DNA of 21,408 nucleotides from a virus: positions 1 through 21,408 of IMG/VR virus record IMGVR_UViG_3300049783_000835. One strand, written 5' to 3'. The position numbers were made by a program, and so were the translations under genes. The notes under the pieces are model-generated. The model was not told the DNA's origin, ran no database searches, and saw only the letters and a program-made list of their open reading frames with translations. This document shows positions 6,803-19,558 of the stretch, piece by piece; within the stretch, counting starts at the first letter, position 1, and every line of letters starts with the position of its first letter.

Positions 6803-7525
6803 TTAATTGATTATTGTTTTACCTAGTTCTTTTTCGGCTTGTTCTTTTGTGATGGTTTCTAGTATTTCTGCCCAAACACCGTTTTGAAAAATACATTCAT
6901 TATGACAATCACCAGAAGATAAACTATTATTTTTTATATCAAAATACATTCCTTTAAAATCACATATTGAACTCTGATTCCAAGCACTCTTAAATTGAAC
7001 CCCTTCTTTAAAACCTATCTTTTTAGCCTCTTTAATAAGTGCTTCTTCTACTTCTTTATCGGTTGATTTGTAGTCACCAACTCTTAATGTATAATTATGA
7101 GATAAATTTTCTTTCCATTTTCCAATAATATCTACACCATACTTCATAATTCCGTTTTCAAAAAACATACACCAATTTTTTGATGTCTTGTCTTTATACC
7201 AACCATTTGCTTTCTCTTCTTTCACAATAGGTTCTTTAATTATTTCCGCCCATTTACCATTTTTGTAAATACGATCATGATTTAAAGTAAGTGAATCTAT
7301 AGCAGGATAGTATTTATATCTATCTCCATTAACAACCTCTAACCTACCATCAACTACATCAATAAACTGAACCCCTTCTTTAAAGCCTCTTTTTTTAGCT
7401 TGTTGAATAAGTGTATCCCCTACTTGTTTAAATAATTTAGGGAATTCGTCCTCAATGTTTTTTTTCCATTGACTACAAGCAGCTTCATGCGCTTGCTTAA
7501 TAAAATTTTTTCTACTGTCTTTCAT
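6803..7525 (-). CDS. Early phage protein with an internal duplication, 240 aa
   Basis: Two copies of the same unit are visible. The first (about residues 38-98) carries AKKRGFKEGVQF ... DRIYKNGKWAEIIKEPI. The second (about 163-228) carries AKKIGFKEGVQF ... ECIFQNGVWAEILETIT. Each pairs a helix-G-F-K-x-G-V-x-F start with an xGxWAEI end, likely a small alpha/beta domain. A Trp-rich linker (WYKDKTSKNWCMFF) joins them. The repeat is recalled from phage early proteins with no assigned role; it might bind a ligand or nucleic acid in each unit. Confidence 0.65.
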   Translation of the reverse strand: MKDSRKNFIKQAHEAACSQWKKNIEDEFPKLFKQVGDTLIQQAKKRGFKEGVQFIDVVDGRLEVVNGDRYKYYPAIDSLTLNHDRIYKNGKWAEIIKEPIVKEEKANGWYKDKTSKNWCMFFENGIMKYGVDIIGKWKENLSHNYTLRVGDYKSTDKEVEEALIKEAKKIGFKEGVQFKSAWNQSSICDFKGMYFDIKNNSLSSGDCHNECIFQNGVWAEILETITKEQAEKELGKTIIN

Positions 7526-16006: not shown

Positions 16007-17245
16007 TTGAAATTAAGAAAACGATTGACAAAAAAAGAGGCTGTTTATTTGGGTCTAGTGGTTAAAGAAGATGGAAATGACGGATCAAATGCAAGATACA
16101 TGGTATCTGAAGAGCAGCAAGATGCAATAACATTATTAAGATGCAAACCTAACGAGCGTAATTTTGTAGAAACTCAAATCAAAAAAGGTAAAGACGGTGA
16201 AACGCTATCGACTTTAGAAAAGTTGCAAAGTGAACCAGTAGATATTCCAGACAACTTTGAGGTTATAAAAATAAGTACTTCAAAGACTACAGGGCAGCAA
16301 TGGATACAATACGCCCCTAAAAAAGAAAGCATTTTAGAAATAGTTGAAGGATTTGACTTTAAAAGCGTAATTGAAAAGTATATAAACCCTTTAAAAAAAC
16401 AAAAACCATTTGATAATTCGAATTTTAAAGACGGTAAAGATTTTGATGCGTTAACTTATACGGATGTGCATATTGGAATGGATTCAGATTCCGATAATAA
16501 TACAATGTATGTTCGTACTTGGAACAAAACAGAGTTGTTTAAATCAGCCGATGAATTAATAAGAGTAACTTTACAGGAACAAGAAAGCAATATATTGTAT
16601 GTTGATGATTTGGGTGATTTTTTAGACGGATTTGATGGAATGACCACTAGAAAAGGTCATGCACTGCCTCAAAATATGACTAATAAAGAATCTTTTGATT
16701 ACGGTTTAGAATTTAAAATGAGGGTGCTTTACGGTTTAGTTGATAACTATGAAGAAATACATTTTAATAACATTTGTAACGATAACCATTCGGGAGATTT
16801 TGGATATTTTGTGAATGAGGCGTTTAAGCAAATTGCAGAAATACAATTCAATAACGTAAAAGTTGTAAATCACGTTAAATTTATAAACCATTATTTTGTG
16901 GGTGACATTTGCTTTTTAATTTCGCACGGTAAAGATGATAAGTCTTTAAAGTTTGGATTTAAACCATTTTTAGATTTAAAAGGAGCTGATAAAATAGATC
17001 AATATTGCAAACAATACGGAATTTATAAGACTGCGAAACTAATTATCTTTAAAAAAGGAGATAGTCATCAAGCATTGTTTGATATGTGTACGTCTGATGA
17101 CTTCTTTTACTTTAATTATCCCGCTCTTTCACCGTCTTCTAACTGGATTAAAAACAACTTTAAGCTTGGTAGGCGTGGATTTGTTAATGAGTCTTTTAAA
17201 GGCCTTAAAAATTACTTAAAACCAAACTTTATATTATGCCAGTAG
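16007..17245 (+). CDS. Calcineurin-like metallophosphoesterase, 412 aa
   Basis: Metal motifs appear in order: D153-x-H155 (TYTDVHIGMD), G203-D204 with D207 (VDDLGDFLDGF), N260-H261 (ICNDNHSGDF, standing for GNHD/E) and H307 (LISHGKDD). This is the calcineurin-like fold, shared with MRE11/SbcD nucleases and nucleotide phosphatases. A 140-residue N-terminal region, basic and helical at first, precedes it and may bind DNA. The start is a TTG at 16007: a stop lies upstream in frame and no ATG occurs until codon 32. The substrate is unknown; phage members next to helicase genes are often suspected nucleases. Confidence 0.7.
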   Translation: MKLRKRLTKKEAVYLGLVVKEDGNDGSNARYMVSEEQQDAITLLRCKPNERNFVETQIKKGKDGETLSTLEKLQSEPVDIPDNFEVIKISTSKTTGQQWIQYAPKKESILEIVEGFDFKSVIEKYINPLKKQKPFDNSNFKDGKDFDALTYTDVHIGMDSDSDNNTMYVRTWNKTELFKSADELIRVTLQEQESNILYVDDLGDFLDGFDGMTTRKGHALPQNMTNKESFDYGLEFKMRVLYGLVDNYEEIHFNNICNDNHSGDFGYFVNEAFKQIAEIQFNNVKVVNHVKFINHYFVGDICFLISHGKDDKSLKFGFKPFLDLKGADKIDQYCKQYGIYKTAKLIIFKKGDSHQALFDMCTSDDFFYFNYPALSPSSNWIKNNFKLGRRGFVNESFKGLKNYLKPNFILCQ

Positions 17246-17307
17246 TTATCTTTGCGTGTGTGTTGTTGGTGTTTTATGGGTTGTGTAAAGATGCGCCTTT
17301 TAAATAA
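17236..17307 (+). CDS. Hydrophobic microprotein, 23 aa, first ORF of the cassette-like run
   Basis: The ORF MPVVIFACVLLVFYGLCKDA (then PFK) is one hydrophobic helix with a charged tail, so likely a membrane peptide. Its ATG overlaps the end of the phosphoesterase gene. Its TAA stop forms the first bases of the palindromic element at 17305-17363. At 23 residues it could be chance, but its shape and the stop-plus-TAAC arrangement match the following ORFs. Confidence 0.4.
   Translation: MPVVIFACVLLVFYGLCKDAPFK
17247..17254 (+). promoter_or_regulatory. Weak candidate promoter of the cassette region
   Basis: TATCTTTG matches TAnnTTTG, 2 nt after the phosphoesterase stop. No TTG at the ideal -33 position. 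It lies inside the microprotein frame, so it would serve only the genes from 17378 onward. Chance is possible. Confidence 0.25.
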
Positions 17308-17365
17308 CGCTGAGTGTATTATTAAGTGAAACGACCCGATAGGGTTAATTATAAACATTGTTATT
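17303..17365 (+). repeat. Palindromic cassette element A
   Basis: Left arm TAACGCTGAGTGTAT (17305-17319) and right arm ATAAACATTGTTA (17351-17363) pair at TAAC/GTTA and, with one mismatch, GTGTAT/ATAAAC. An apical hairpin ACCC-GATA-GGGT sits at 17334-17345. Both arms resemble those of element B (11 of 15 and 11 of 13 identical). The TAA is also the stop of the 23-residue ORF. Confidence 0.6.
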
Positions 17366-17377
17366 AATAGTAAAATT

Positions 17378-17620
17378 ATGGCTGGAATAGATAAAATGAA
17401 TATGACCAAAGAGCAATTTTATAAATTTTGCGAATGGTTCTTTGAACACTACTCAGTAAATGAGGAAGGTAAAGAAATAATGGAACAGATGAACTACCAA
17501 AATGTAATGGAGTATGATAGAGCAACTTTCAATTTCCCGAAAAATGTTGATGAATACCTAAATAAAAATTGCGGATTAGATTTTGTGCAGAAAAGATTGA
17601 AGGAGCAATACTGTGAATAA
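17378..17620 (+). CDS. Cassette-type hypothetical protein, 80 aa
   Basis: It begins MAGIDKMNMTKEQFYKFCEW and is soluble, helical and rich in aromatic and acidic residues (FFEHYSVNEEGKEIMEQMNY). The start ATG 17378 follows AAAATT; an alternative ATG lies at 17396. It lies between palindromic elements A and B, 12 nt after one and followed 12 nt later by the next: one ORF per element. Not recognised. Confidence 0.6.
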   Translation: MAGIDKMNMTKEQFYKFCEWFFEHYSVNEEGKEIMEQMNYQNVMEYDRATFNFPKNVDEYLNKNCGLDFVQKRLKEQYCE

Positions 17621-17632
17621 TTTTATTGTTTA

Positions 17633-17719
17633 TAACGGTTTGTGTATGAAATGTAGCCCGTACACAGGCTTTAATAATCATAACAAAACTTTATAGGCTA
17701 TTTTTTATACACGTTGTTA
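17633..17719 (+). repeat. Palindromic cassette element B
   Basis: Left arm TAACGGTTTGTGTAT (17633-17647) pairs with right arm ATACACGTTGTTA (17707-17719), and TAGCC (17654-17658) pairs with GGCTA (17696-17700). The resulting 87-nt imperfect hairpin has internal bulges, the architecture of an integron attC site. The bases after GTTA are GCG, so the classical GTTRRRY core is not met. It is the best-formed of the set. Confidence 0.65.
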
Positions 17720-17730
17720 GCGTTTCGTTT

Positions 17731-17744
17731 TTTGAGCGTTGGCA
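17731..17744 (+). repeat. 14-nt direct repeat, copy 1
   Basis: TTTGAGCGTTGGCA occurs here, between element B and the start of the 68-residue ORF, and again at 17940-17953 inside the end of the same ORF. The copies are 209 bp apart, close to one cassette length. Confidence 0.8.
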
Positions 17745-17759
17745 TTTAAAACTAAAATT

Positions 17760-17966
17760 ATGAGTACAAATTTTGTAGACAGAAAAAACGATGAGGAAAT
17801 AATAGACCTTATAAACAGTATTTTATCAAACGGTAAAATGCAAGTAGAAACTATTAACGAAGCTGTATTGGTTAAGTTGATGGAGATTAGAAACACTCCT
17901 GTAAAATACGATAAATCATTTAGGGATATTGATAAAGACTTTGAGCGTTGGCAAAATGAACGCTAA
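17760..17966 (+). CDS. Cassette-type hypothetical protein, 68 aa
   Basis: It begins MSTNFVDRKNDEEIIDLINS, helical and acidic, and ends DFERWQNER. The ATG at 17760 is chosen because it follows ACTAAAATT, the local leader; an upstream TTG at 17739 would run into the direct repeat. The stop TAA starts palindromic element C. The C-terminal FERWQ codons contain the second copy of the 14-nt direct repeat. It resembles no known family; size and charge would suit an antitoxin, which is only a guess. Confidence 0.6.
   Translation: MSTNFVDRKNDEEIIDLINSILSNGKMQVETINEAVLVKLMEIRNTPVKYDKSFRDIDKDFERWQNER
17940..17953 (+). repeat. 14-nt direct repeat, copy 2
   Basis: An identical copy of TTTGAGCGTTGGCA lies here in the last codons (F-E-R-W-Q) of the 68-residue ORF, 10 nt before element C. 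Confidence 0.8.
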
Positions 17967-18009
17967 CAAAAGTATAAAATGGCGTTTTAATGCATTTTAT
18001 ATAATGTTA
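17964..18009 (+). repeat. Palindromic cassette element C
   Basis: TAAC (17964-17967) pairs with GTTA (18006-18009), and TATAAAATG (17973-17981) pairs perfectly with CATTTTATA (17993-18001), with an 11-nt loop. It is similar in shape to A and B and ends in ATGTTA like A (CATTGTTA), but its arms are more AT-rich and less similar in sequence. The TAA is the stop codon of the 68-residue ORF. Confidence 0.55.
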
Positions 18010-18053
18010 TTTAATTTTTCGACGAATGTTTTTTTTAGTAAGTTTAAATACTG

Positions 18054-18061
18054 TATATTTG
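18054..18061 (+). promoter_or_regulatory. Promoter before the 26-aa microprotein (-7 box)
   Basis: TATATTTG fits TAnnTTTG, with a T8 run about 17 nt upstream at the -33 place. The first ATG is 22 nt downstream (18084). This gives the rest of the array its own transcription, independent of the operon upstream. Confidence 0.55.
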
Positions 18062-18083
18062 TGTAAATATTAAAACATAAACC

Positions 18084-18164
18084 ATGAAGAAAAAAGAAAT
18101 AATAAGATTAGTAATAGGAGTCATAGTGTTTGTAATAATTTTAAATTTATTGATTTGTAGTTAA
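18084..18164 (+). CDS. Single-helix membrane microprotein, 26 aa
   Basis: MKKKEIIRLVIGVIVFVIIL continues NLLICS. A short basic N-terminus (KKKEIIR) precedes one hydrophobic helix ending in Cys-Ser. This resembles small membrane toxins or small helper peptides, but it has no clear relative. It is directly downstream of a promoter with an A-rich leader, which supports real expression. Its stop begins the TAACG motif of half-element D. Confidence 0.55.
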   Translation: MKKKEIIRLVIGVIVFVIILNLLICS

Positions 18165-18176
18165 CGTTGAATCTAT
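18162..18176 (+). repeat. Cassette motif D (left arm only)
   Basis: TAACGTTGAATCTAT matches the left arm of element A at 12 of 15 positions and starts with the stop codon of the 26-residue ORF. No matching right arm was found before the next gene at 18223; it may be degenerate or truncated. Confidence 0.4.
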
Positions 18177-18222
18177 GGTTAGTGGCGTAAATTAATAACT
18201 GAACTTTATAAATAAAGACAAA

Positions 18223-18519
18223 ATGAAAACAACAAACTACAAAGGAAAAGGTGAACACTCGGTTAATGAACTAGAGTTAATAATAGAGAAACAAGCAGAA
18301 GAACTGCACTTAATAAGAAGTGGACAAAAGCCATTAATTATAGATAGTGTTATTGAACGTTTACCGATTGGTGAAGTAATAAAGTTAATAGACAACGAAG
18401 ACTTTAAAGGATTTACAGGTGAATTAAGTATAACTGGACATTGTAGTTATATGGGTAAAAATGTAGGATACTTAGTTAATGGAGAAGGAATTTTCTTAAT
18501 AGAAGACTTTGTGAGGTAA
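18223..18519 (+). CDS. Hypothetical protein, 98 aa
   Basis: It begins MKTTNYKGKGEHSVNELELI, with a helical first half (EKQAEELHLIRSG) and a mixed second half (LPIGEVIKLIDNEDFKGFTG then YLVNGEGIFLIEDF). Its ATG follows a leader AAAGACAAA. Eight nucleotides after its stop comes the motif TAACAAGCGTAT (18528-18539), like a shortened left arm of the palindromic elements. Not recognised. Confidence 0.6.
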   Translation: MKTTNYKGKGEHSVNELELIIEKQAEELHLIRSGQKPLIIDSVIERLPIGEVIKLIDNEDFKGFTGELSITGHCSYMGKNVGYLVNGEGIFLIEDFVR

Positions 18520-18527
18520 ATGTTTTA

Positions 18528-18556
18528 TAACAAGCGTATAACAACAATACATAAAT
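18528..18556 (+). repeat. Repeat E (upstream copy of a split repeat pair)
   Basis: TAACAAGCGTAT, then CGTATAACAACAATA (18535-18549) and ATAAAT. The 15-nt core is identical to 18977-18991. In the downstream copy this sequence runs almost directly into AAAAAGCCTCGCAATAA; in this copy the two parts are separated by the 46-residue ORF. Confidence 0.65.
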
Positions 18557-18560
18557 TAAC

Positions 18561-18701
18561 ATGAAGGATATAATTTATAGTTATTTAGAAAAAGGAAAAG
18601 ACGGATTAGATAGGGATATTAGATACATAAAAGAAGAAAATTTACCTAATTTAATAAAAGAGTTAAATCAATATTTTAAATTTAATATTTTTAGTGAATA
18701 A
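18561..18701 (+). CDS. Small hypothetical protein, 46 aa
   Basis: The ORF begins MKDIIYSYLEKGKDGLDRDI and ends KFNIFSE. It is highly charged and helical. It lies exactly between two halves of a repeat that are nearly contiguous at 18977-19017, so it may be an inserted unit. Leader AATTAAC precedes the ATG. Not recognised. Confidence 0.5.
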   Translation: MKDIIYSYLEKGKDGLDRDIRYIKEENLPNLIKELNQYFKFNIFSE

Positions 18702-18716
18702 AAAGCCTCGCAATAA
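18700..18716 (+). repeat. Copy of the terminator left arm
   Basis: AAAAAGCCTCGCAATAA here is identical to 19001-19017, where it forms the left half of the terminator hairpin. This copy has no partner arm nearby and lies in the leader of the next gene. Confidence 0.7.
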
Positions 18717-18738
18717 AACACAAAACTATAAAACAAAA

Positions 18739-18996
18739 ATGAGTTGGAATCACAGAGTATTAGCACATAAAGATGGAGATGAAATGATTTTTCAGATACA
18801 TGAAGTTTATTACGATAAAGATGGCAATCCAGAAAGTTATACAGAAAATAGTGTGAGCGTGAGTGCTGAAAGTTTGGATGGTATAAAATGGGTACTAGAT
18901 AAAATGAGAGATTGTGCTAATAAACCCATTCTTTTATTGGACGGATTTCCGAATGAGTATAATGGTGGACAACAATCGTATAACAACAATAAATAA
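18739..18996 (+). CDS. Conserved small protein, MSWNxRV family, 85 aa
   Basis: It begins MSWNHRVLAHKDGDEMIFQI and continues HEVYYDKDGNPESYTENSVS, then GIKWVLDKMRDCANKPILLL. This pattern (MSWNxRV, HEVYYDxDGxPxSYTExP, then WxLxxMxxAxxKPIL) is recalled from a widespread bacterial family of unknown function, often seen as single accessory genes, some in gene cassettes. The ATG at 18739 is chosen over a GTG at 18694 because the family starts with MSWN. Its last codons (SYNNNK) are made of the repeat at 18977. The bidirectional terminator follows at once. Confidence 0.75.
   Translation: MSWNHRVLAHKDGDEMIFQIHEVYYDKDGNPESYTENSVSVSAESLDGIKWVLDKMRDCANKPILLLDGFPNEYNGGQQSYNNNK
18977..18991 (+). repeat. 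Repeat F (downstream copy of the split repeat pair)
   Basis: CGTATAACAACAATA is identical to 18535-18549 and similar for about 8 nt beyond. Here it encodes the C-terminal S-Y-N-N-N-K of the conserved 85-residue protein. Nine nucleotides separate it from the terminator left arm. Confidence 0.65.
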
Positions 18997-19000
18997 ATAC

Positions 19001-19030
19001 AAAAAGCCTCGCAATAATGCAAGGCTTTTT
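19001..19030. terminator. Bidirectional intrinsic terminator
   Basis: AAAAAGCCT (19001-19009) pairs with AGGCTTTTT (19022-19030), and GCA pairs with TGC around an ATAA loop, with one mismatch. It carries a T-run on each strand. It lies between the convergent plus operon (ends 18996) and minus late genes (last stop 19046), so it should stop transcription from both sides. Confidence 0.85.
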
Positions 19031-19045
19031 AAATAATAAGTAATT

Positions 19046-19558
19046 TTAAGCTACTAAAGCTAATAAAGCTGTTACTGTTGCAGCATCTAAACTAGGAGAG
19101 TATCCTTTTTGTTCAGCCACTAAAGTAACGTTGTAACCGTTAGGGTCATTTCTACCACCACCTGTAACTAATTCACCTGTTGATGTTACGTTAAATCCCT
19201 TAATTGCTACCCATCTATATTGATCGTTAAAATCTTTATAAACTGCTGAAATTCTAGTTTCTAAAAGCTTATCTAATTCAACATTTGTTTCTGAATTTAC
19301 TTGTTTTAAAAACGAAACTAAAGTAACTGTATTTACTTTGTTTCCAGTTTTTTTATCTGCAATATTAGACTCCGTTAAAGTGTTACCGTCTCCTTGTATA
19401 TCGTAATTGTAAACCGCTGTTAAACCTGCGTTAATTGCGGTTGCTACGTTTGCCGTTACCGTAAAAGCGTCGGCTAGATAATTAAAGAAGTAAATGGTCT
19501 CCACACCCCCCTGTAAATTATCATCGGTTCTTAATCTTCCTGCTGCTATATCTGACAT
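19046..19558 (-). CDS. Probable virion structural protein, 170 aa
   Basis: It begins MSDIAAGRLRTDDNLQGGVE and has an all-beta, Thr/Asn/Gly-rich profile, ending in a hydrophobic tail (AATVTALLALVA). FNVTSTGELVTGGGRNDPNG and YNVTLVAEQ look like beta-sandwich strands. The composition and position after the capsid gene suggest a head decoration, neck or tail-tube-type protein. It is separated from the capsid gene by a strong terminator, so expression is likely lower. No family is certain. Confidence 0.6.
   Translation of the reverse strand: MSDIAAGRLRTDDNLQGGVETIYFFNYLADAFTVTANVATAINAGLTAVYNYDIQGDGNTLTESNIADKKTGNKVNTVTLVSFLKQVNSETNVELDKLLETRISAVYKDFNDQYRWVAIKGFNVTSTGELVTGGGRNDPNGYNVTLVAEQKGYSPSLDAATVTALLALVA

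Follow-up and report, generated by a model that had tools for sequence, protein, structure and literature searches.

We found that positions 17302-19031 of the viral DNA analysed here are probably an array of exchangeable small genes, in which exchange would take place at an AAC box at the gene end. The whole stretch, which we call the window, comprises the 21,408 nucleotides of the IMG/VR record IMGVR_UViG_3300049783_000835. Repeats and hairpins were observed in the array, one relative carries another array at the same junction, and in three pairs of other viruses most edges of exchanged stretches coincide with the gene-end box. The record is viral, and distant relatives of its late genes occur in phages of Cellulophaga and Nonlabens; the window belongs to a phage of Bacteroidota-type bacteria.

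The early genes on the plus strand and the late genes on the minus strand converge at about 19,030, and six small ORFs of 26-98 aa were placed between them in 17302-19031 (Table 1). None of the six matched Pfam. In a PHROG scan of five of them (the 26-aa ORF was left out), only the 85-aa ORF gave a match, phrog_21321.

Table 1. Sites, genes and repeated blocks of the array, with window positions.
Feature	Position	Strand	Remarks
attC-like hairpin site 1 (AAATAACG ... ATT GTTATTA)	17302-17366	+	by reading; below the 8/10 scan threshold
ORF, 80 aa	17378-17620	+	no match in PHROG or Pfam; distantly related sequences in L101 and L102
attC-like hairpin site 2 (TTATAACGG ... GTT GTTAGCG)	17630-17722	+	9/10 arm pairs
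ORF, 68 aa	17760-17966	+	stop codon within box CGCTAAC
attC-like hairpin site 3 (CGCTAAC ... GTTATTT)	17961-18012	+	spacing (5,4), 9/10 arm pairs
ORF, 26 aa	18084-18164	+	stop codon within box AGTTAAC; no Pfam match
Possible decayed site (AGTTAACG ... GGTTAGTGG)	18159-18185	+	by reading; no convincing arms, one doubtful long-loop scan match
ORF, 98 aa	18223-18519	+	sole relative found is in the identical contig L049
Block A, upstream copy	18529-18556	+	from AAC box TTATAAC onwards
ORF, 46 aa	18561-18701	+	named in the sequence-only reading; no PHROG or Pfam match
Block B, upstream copy	18700-18716	+	lone left arm of terminator
ORF, 85 aa	18739-18996	+	phrog_21321; relatives between attC-like sites in L096 and L125
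Block A, downstream copy	18971-18998	+	from AAC box GGACAAC onwards; within the final codons of the 85-aa ORF
Bidirectional terminator hairpin	19001-19030	.	left arm is the downstream copy of block B (19001-19017)
First late gene beside the array, 170 aa	19046-19558	-	phrog_19091

The hairpin sites share one layout. An AAC foot is separated by 5-6 nt from the first arm; behind the loop and the complementary arm, 3-4 nt lead to a GTT foot. They were detected with an in-house geometry scan at a threshold of 8/10 arm pairs, and with looser and then fixed-spacing versions of it. At least two attC-like sites, with R''/R' boxes and paired arms, lie close together in the window (sites 2 and 3), and site 1 was added by its likeness to another locus, L166: 17302-17380 matches L166 12701-12778 at 93.7% identity, and the gene behind it differs. 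The window sites were missed by a strict detector requiring paired R boxes, and an Rfam search gave no match.

Several comparisons with shuffled sequences were made for these sites. With the spacing (5,3), scans of three array regions gave 10 matches, where shuffled sequences averaged 0.33 per spacing class. The left half of the hairpin, TAACGGACGAGTRTATG, was accompanied by a matching right half at 40 of its 73 occurrences and at 0 of 1420 in shuffles; the other 33 occurrences had no right half within 230 nt. At the 71 loci with the pattern the scan reported 231 sites in the real sequences and 79 in the shuffled ones, so that about a third may be chance. An ORF of at least 30 aa ended at or near the box in 95/159 sites, compared with 37/464 in the control, and the commonest stop at the box was the TAA of TAAC. 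The hairpin pattern looks virus-typical, being present in 71 viral stretches and in 1/395 Bacteroidia genomes, two collections that differ in size. The sole Bacteroidia match is the MAG that is the source of the contig L125, which may itself be mobile. Separately, a 93-kb viral contig (L196, IMGVR_UViG_3300025839_000011) was seen to carry 17 hairpin sites on one strand within 14.6 kb, together with three Y1 transposase matches.

Another array was found at the same early/late junction in a relative whose late gene is 84% identical (L105). In this array, a gene that reads as a Dam-type DNA methyltransferase lies between CTAAC...GTTAG sites. Three other relatives (L106-L108) have a different ORF and no site at that junction. 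This ORF (L106:5570-6430, the same in L107 and L108) contains many YYLDNKE-like repeats and, by reading, an HNH-type end. At 15 loci retrieved by way of the capsid gene, with the near-identical contig left aside, no convincing array was found downstream, and a rescan of these loci with wider spacing gave a few weak 8/10 matches.

The 85-aa gene was also found between attC-like sites in L096 and in the Bacteroidota MAG contig L125, and no site was seen beside four other relatives of the gene. The gene ends can be aligned as GGTG-GACAAC in the window, GGTG-CATAAC in L096 and GGTG-GCTAAC in L125, with divergence behind the box. This alignment indicated that the AAC before the downstream copy of block A occupies the position of the R'' box in the other copies. 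A short way behind the relative of the 85-aa ORF in L125, another gene is present (L125:1420-2595), which we take to be similar to IS605 OrfB/TnpB.

The position of exchange was read from pairs of other viruses with related arrays. Every match of 250 nt or longer in the named loci was collected, which gave 23 edges before exclusions. Four edges of L204/L216 were excluded (L216 is the same contig as L200), as were three in P12002L/P12002S outside the arrays and two in the methylase gene, which is 91% identical between P12002L and a Cellulophaga phage. The 14 edges left came from three pairs: P12002L/P12002S, L200/L204 and L154/L184 (one edge). Eleven of them fell at the gene-end AAC box (R''), two inside the left arm and one at GTT (R'). 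The two edges in the left arm represent one junction, about 13 nt inside, and the script labels one of them as box. Positions near such a motif amount to 5-11%. At several edges only about five or six bases were shared (TAACG or TAACGT), and then both sequences diverged. A modular rearrangement by a mechanism acting at gene ends, which the sequence-only reading had proposed for the window, is thus supported for the family by the edges in related arrays.

According to Kang 2015 (PMC4615864), P12002L and P12002S were both isolated on the same host from a single enrichment of a single seawater sample. In their array regions the shared stretches are about 99-100% identical. Compared with P12002L, P12002S has one extra unit from box to box, consisting of a hairpin, the methyltransferase gene gp38 and the box TTGCTAAC. 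The gene upstream of this unit keeps its box GGTAAC in both phages, with different hairpins behind it, and the hairpin that follows it in P12002L is the one that follows gp38 in P12002S. The viral contigs L200 and L204 have three stretches in common at 98.6-100%. Two of these run from AAC box to AAC box with the hairpin first and the gene second, and the third, of 284 nt (L204:411-694), extends exactly from an AAC box to a GTT box and has an 81-aa ORF within the hairpin loop. In P12002L a hairpin-less tail of 68 nt has two copies, 100% identical, which follow different genes; one copy precedes an ORF and the other adjoins the convergent junction. Identical 68-nt tails (100%) were likewise noted in P12002L and P12002S at L127:29172-29239 and L128:9609-9676, where they follow different genes, each directly after an AAC box. 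Flavobacterium LMO phages have a methyltransferase stretch in common with P12002L, and the one locus of these that was read, mumin6-1, gave a single weak site match.

Shorter matches gave a less clean picture. Among 75 starts, 47 were at R'' and 25 inside the hairpin, a preference for R'' that is favoured because most loci were found by a pattern beginning with TAACGG. Among 73 ends, 44 were at R', 19 beyond it, 9 at R'' and 1 inside the hairpin.

Edges at the gene-end AAC box imply that the hairpin moves together with the gene downstream of it, the reverse of the behaviour of classical cassettes. In the standard integron layout a cassette consists of a gene and a downstream attC, and cassettes are thought to move with this downstream attC. 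We weighed whether the window holds an ordinary CALIN of standard polarity, since decayed, in which a gene and its downstream attC were moved by a host integron integrase via the G|TT of R'. The AAC/GTT boxes, the arms and the gene-array layout resemble attC arrays. CALINs, which are attC clusters lacking an integrase, have been published from virulent phages including Polaribacter phage P12002L, and IntI1 activity was reported for 5/6 phage attC sites, with one of two P12002L sites recombining (Qi 2023, PMC9892861). The same paper gives G|TT in R' as the standard crossover junction, and its main text mentions P12002S solely in the title of a reference. With this polarity, however, the crossover would lie in R' and the hairpin would stay with the upstream gene, but the relatives had one edge at R' against 11 at R''. 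The flanks of repeated hairpins pointed the same way: 104 near-identical hairpin pairs were compared, 50 with both flanks alike were set aside, and among the 54 pairs with different flanks, which are not all independent, none shared the upstream flank and four shared the downstream flank. An ordinary CALIN is thus unlikely.

In the array of the window, two blocks are repeated. The core of block A, CGTATAACAACAATA, occurs in exact copies at 18535-18549 and 18977-18991, and block B, AAAAAGCCTCGCAATAA, is repeated without mismatch (17/17) at 18700-18716 and 19001-19017, which confirmed exactly the positions reported earlier around the ORF 18561-18701. The downstream copies of A and B are separated by 9 nt. 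In register, A extends to 26/28 matches, from the AAC at 18529/18971 to 18556/18998, and both copies start at a gene-end AAC box, TTATAAC behind the 98-aa ORF and GGACAAC in the 85-aa ORF. Upstream of this AAC the two copies agree at 11/24 positions, meaning that the left edge is not perfectly sharp; on the side of the 85-aa ORF this upstream stretch is ordinary coding sequence, also present in L096. The downstream copy of A is itself coding, with the codons of QQSYNNNK, the last residues of the 85-aa ORF. The start of both copies at such a box supports a mechanism acting at gene ends. The sequence-only reading is corrected on one point: the downstream copy lies inside the coding sequence and not after the gene end. 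Block A lacks a right arm and gave no fold. Its 15-mer had 95 occurrences in the fetched viral loci, and a setting like that of the window was seen only in the two of L049. The downstream copy of B is the left arm of the bidirectional terminator hairpin at about 19001-19030. The upstream copy overlaps the stop codon of the 46-aa ORF by 2 nt and is a left terminator arm alone within the leader of the next ORF (ATG 18739), just as the sequence-only reading had noticed.

That reading explained the blocks by duplication of an A-9nt-B gene-end segment, followed by insertion of a cassette with the 46-aa ORF into one copy. The way in which A and B are ordered and matched on either side of the ORF agrees with such a scenario, but the insertion was not supported as stated. 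An empty site was found in no relative. The near-identical contig L049, the only contig found with the same region, has 0 mismatches over 17201-19100 (1900 nt) and the same arrangement, and this identity says nothing about turnover; the proposed search for relatives with and without the 46-aa ORF gave no such pair. Deletion of the 46-aa ORF from the downstream copy would explain the same data, as would addition of ORF46, the upstream B copy (B') and ORF85 as a unit. The 85-aa ORF that lies between the copies also occurs flanked by such sites in L096 and L125, so that addition of a 442-nt unit (ORF46, B' and ORF85) or of a second array end is a reading as good as the insertion. No AAC box follows ORF46, unlike in the units seen elsewhere. 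We consider insertion of the 46-aa ORF unlikely. Two array ends in tandem are favoured instead, ORF98-A-ORF46-B' and ORF85-A-B-terminator, in which the 46-aa ORF would stand between A and B in only one of the two ends. Block A would then be the start of a unit without a hairpin, attached through the AAC box to two different genes. This reading of A is strengthened by P12002L, in which the two copies of the hairpin-less tail likewise follow different genes.

Which strand forms the hairpin was judged by two measures. Among 143 distinct sites, those without the search pattern, arm mismatches of the G-T type numbered 101 on the gene strand and 17 on the other strand, compared with 48 and 35 in shuffled sites. 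The more stable fold was that of the gene strand in 91/106 sites and that of the other strand in 13. The G-T bias and the stability suit a model in which the gene-sense strand folds and is cut at the box at the gene end, and the sites fit attC-like sites in reverse orientation to the genes. The strand bias is support and not proof because selection on RNA fits too. The hairpins may act in RNA, in processing, attenuation or weak termination behind each gene, with the genes turned over by ordinary phage mosaicism via short shared sequence. A G-T bias on the gene strand would stabilise RNA too, the sites are at gene ends, and attC sites presumably contain weak terminators (Qi 2023, PMC9892861, section 3.4). 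Five or six shared bases at several edges are, however, little for homologous recombination, and the AAC/GTT feet and their spacing are constant, so we regard this explanation as quite improbable.

Chance similarity of AT-rich spacers is hardly credible: over the full window some 15-mer repeat is to be expected (56/60 shuffles), but the A copies match at 26/28 and are collinear with B, and an exact repeat of at least 15 nt arose in 0/300 Markov (dinucleotide) shuffles of 18223-19050. In shuffles of the longer region 17246-19050 such a repeat arose in 9/300 and a 17-nt repeat in none. The A/B pair is thus not chance as judged by the local shuffles, and block A counts because of its position, extension and collinearity with B, 15-mer repeats over the whole window being ordinary. 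Elsewhere in the window, a 68-nt stretch occurs twice at 82% (6991-7058 and 7363-7430), inside one 240-aa ORF.

Most gene ends carry an AAC box, often a TAA stop followed by C, and behind it a single-strand hairpin whose other foot is GTT; box and hairpin together resemble the attC site of integrons. As judged by the breakpoints in relatives, we propose that exchange takes place at this box and probably involves the gene-sense strand. The movable unit would then be the hairpin, the leader and the gene up to the next AAC box, and the window array itself would have moved by such box-to-box exchange. The putative driver is a site-specific single-strand recombinase of the host or the phage. As a more tentative generalisation, which we hold possible but not probable, phages of Bacteroidota may have a virus-typical, integron-like exchange of reversed polarity: the gene-sense strand would fold and be cut at AAC^G, the hairpin and the downstream gene (sometimes a gene in the hairpin loop) would be moved by a putative recombinase, and arrays of small genes and methyltransferases, including that of the window, would be built in this way.

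We searched for enzymes that could belong to such a system. Tyrosine recombinases (PF00589) were found in 3/18 array-bearing records, and the window was not among the three; the window record, which is a fragment, had no PF00589 match, so no integron-integrase was seen in the array. With the integron-integrase model TIGR02249, 1/395 Bacteroidia genomes scored over the cut-off, and the locus of this match (L137) had one weak site.

In the open-licence literature, we found no report of an R'' breakpoint rule or of reversed polarity. The comparison of isolated near-identical phages indicates that genes are swapped at the box opposite to that of classical integrons, in arrays that bear methyltransferases. 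If this is true, two questions become open to tests: by what route a gene acquires or alters its attC, and by what means lytic Bacteroidota phages collect accessory genes without carrying a recombinase.

IS200/IS605 elements and REP/RAYT systems also have single-strand hairpins that bear a short box at their base, and the sites described here resemble them in this respect. In contrast to these systems, the units here have unrelated genes as cargo, the foot is formed by GTT paired with AAC, and 16 of 17 array-bearing records, the window record not among them, lack a Y1 transposase. The Y1 (HUH) transposase expected of an IS200/IS605-type element (PF01797) was found in one of those 17 records. 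Phage morons at operon ends are similar in that small extra genes stand before a terminator and are replaced between relatives (L105 compared with L106-L108), but the genes described here form an array with a common recombination-like box. The closest likeness is to the CALIN of P12002L: small genes run in the same direction with AAC...GTT hairpins between them and no integrase nearby, the hairpins have the same form as those of the window, and methyltransferase cargo is present in both L105 and P12002L. Unlike in the standard integron cassette, the exchange edge in the compared pairs is the R'' box at the gene end, and the hairpin goes with the downstream gene.
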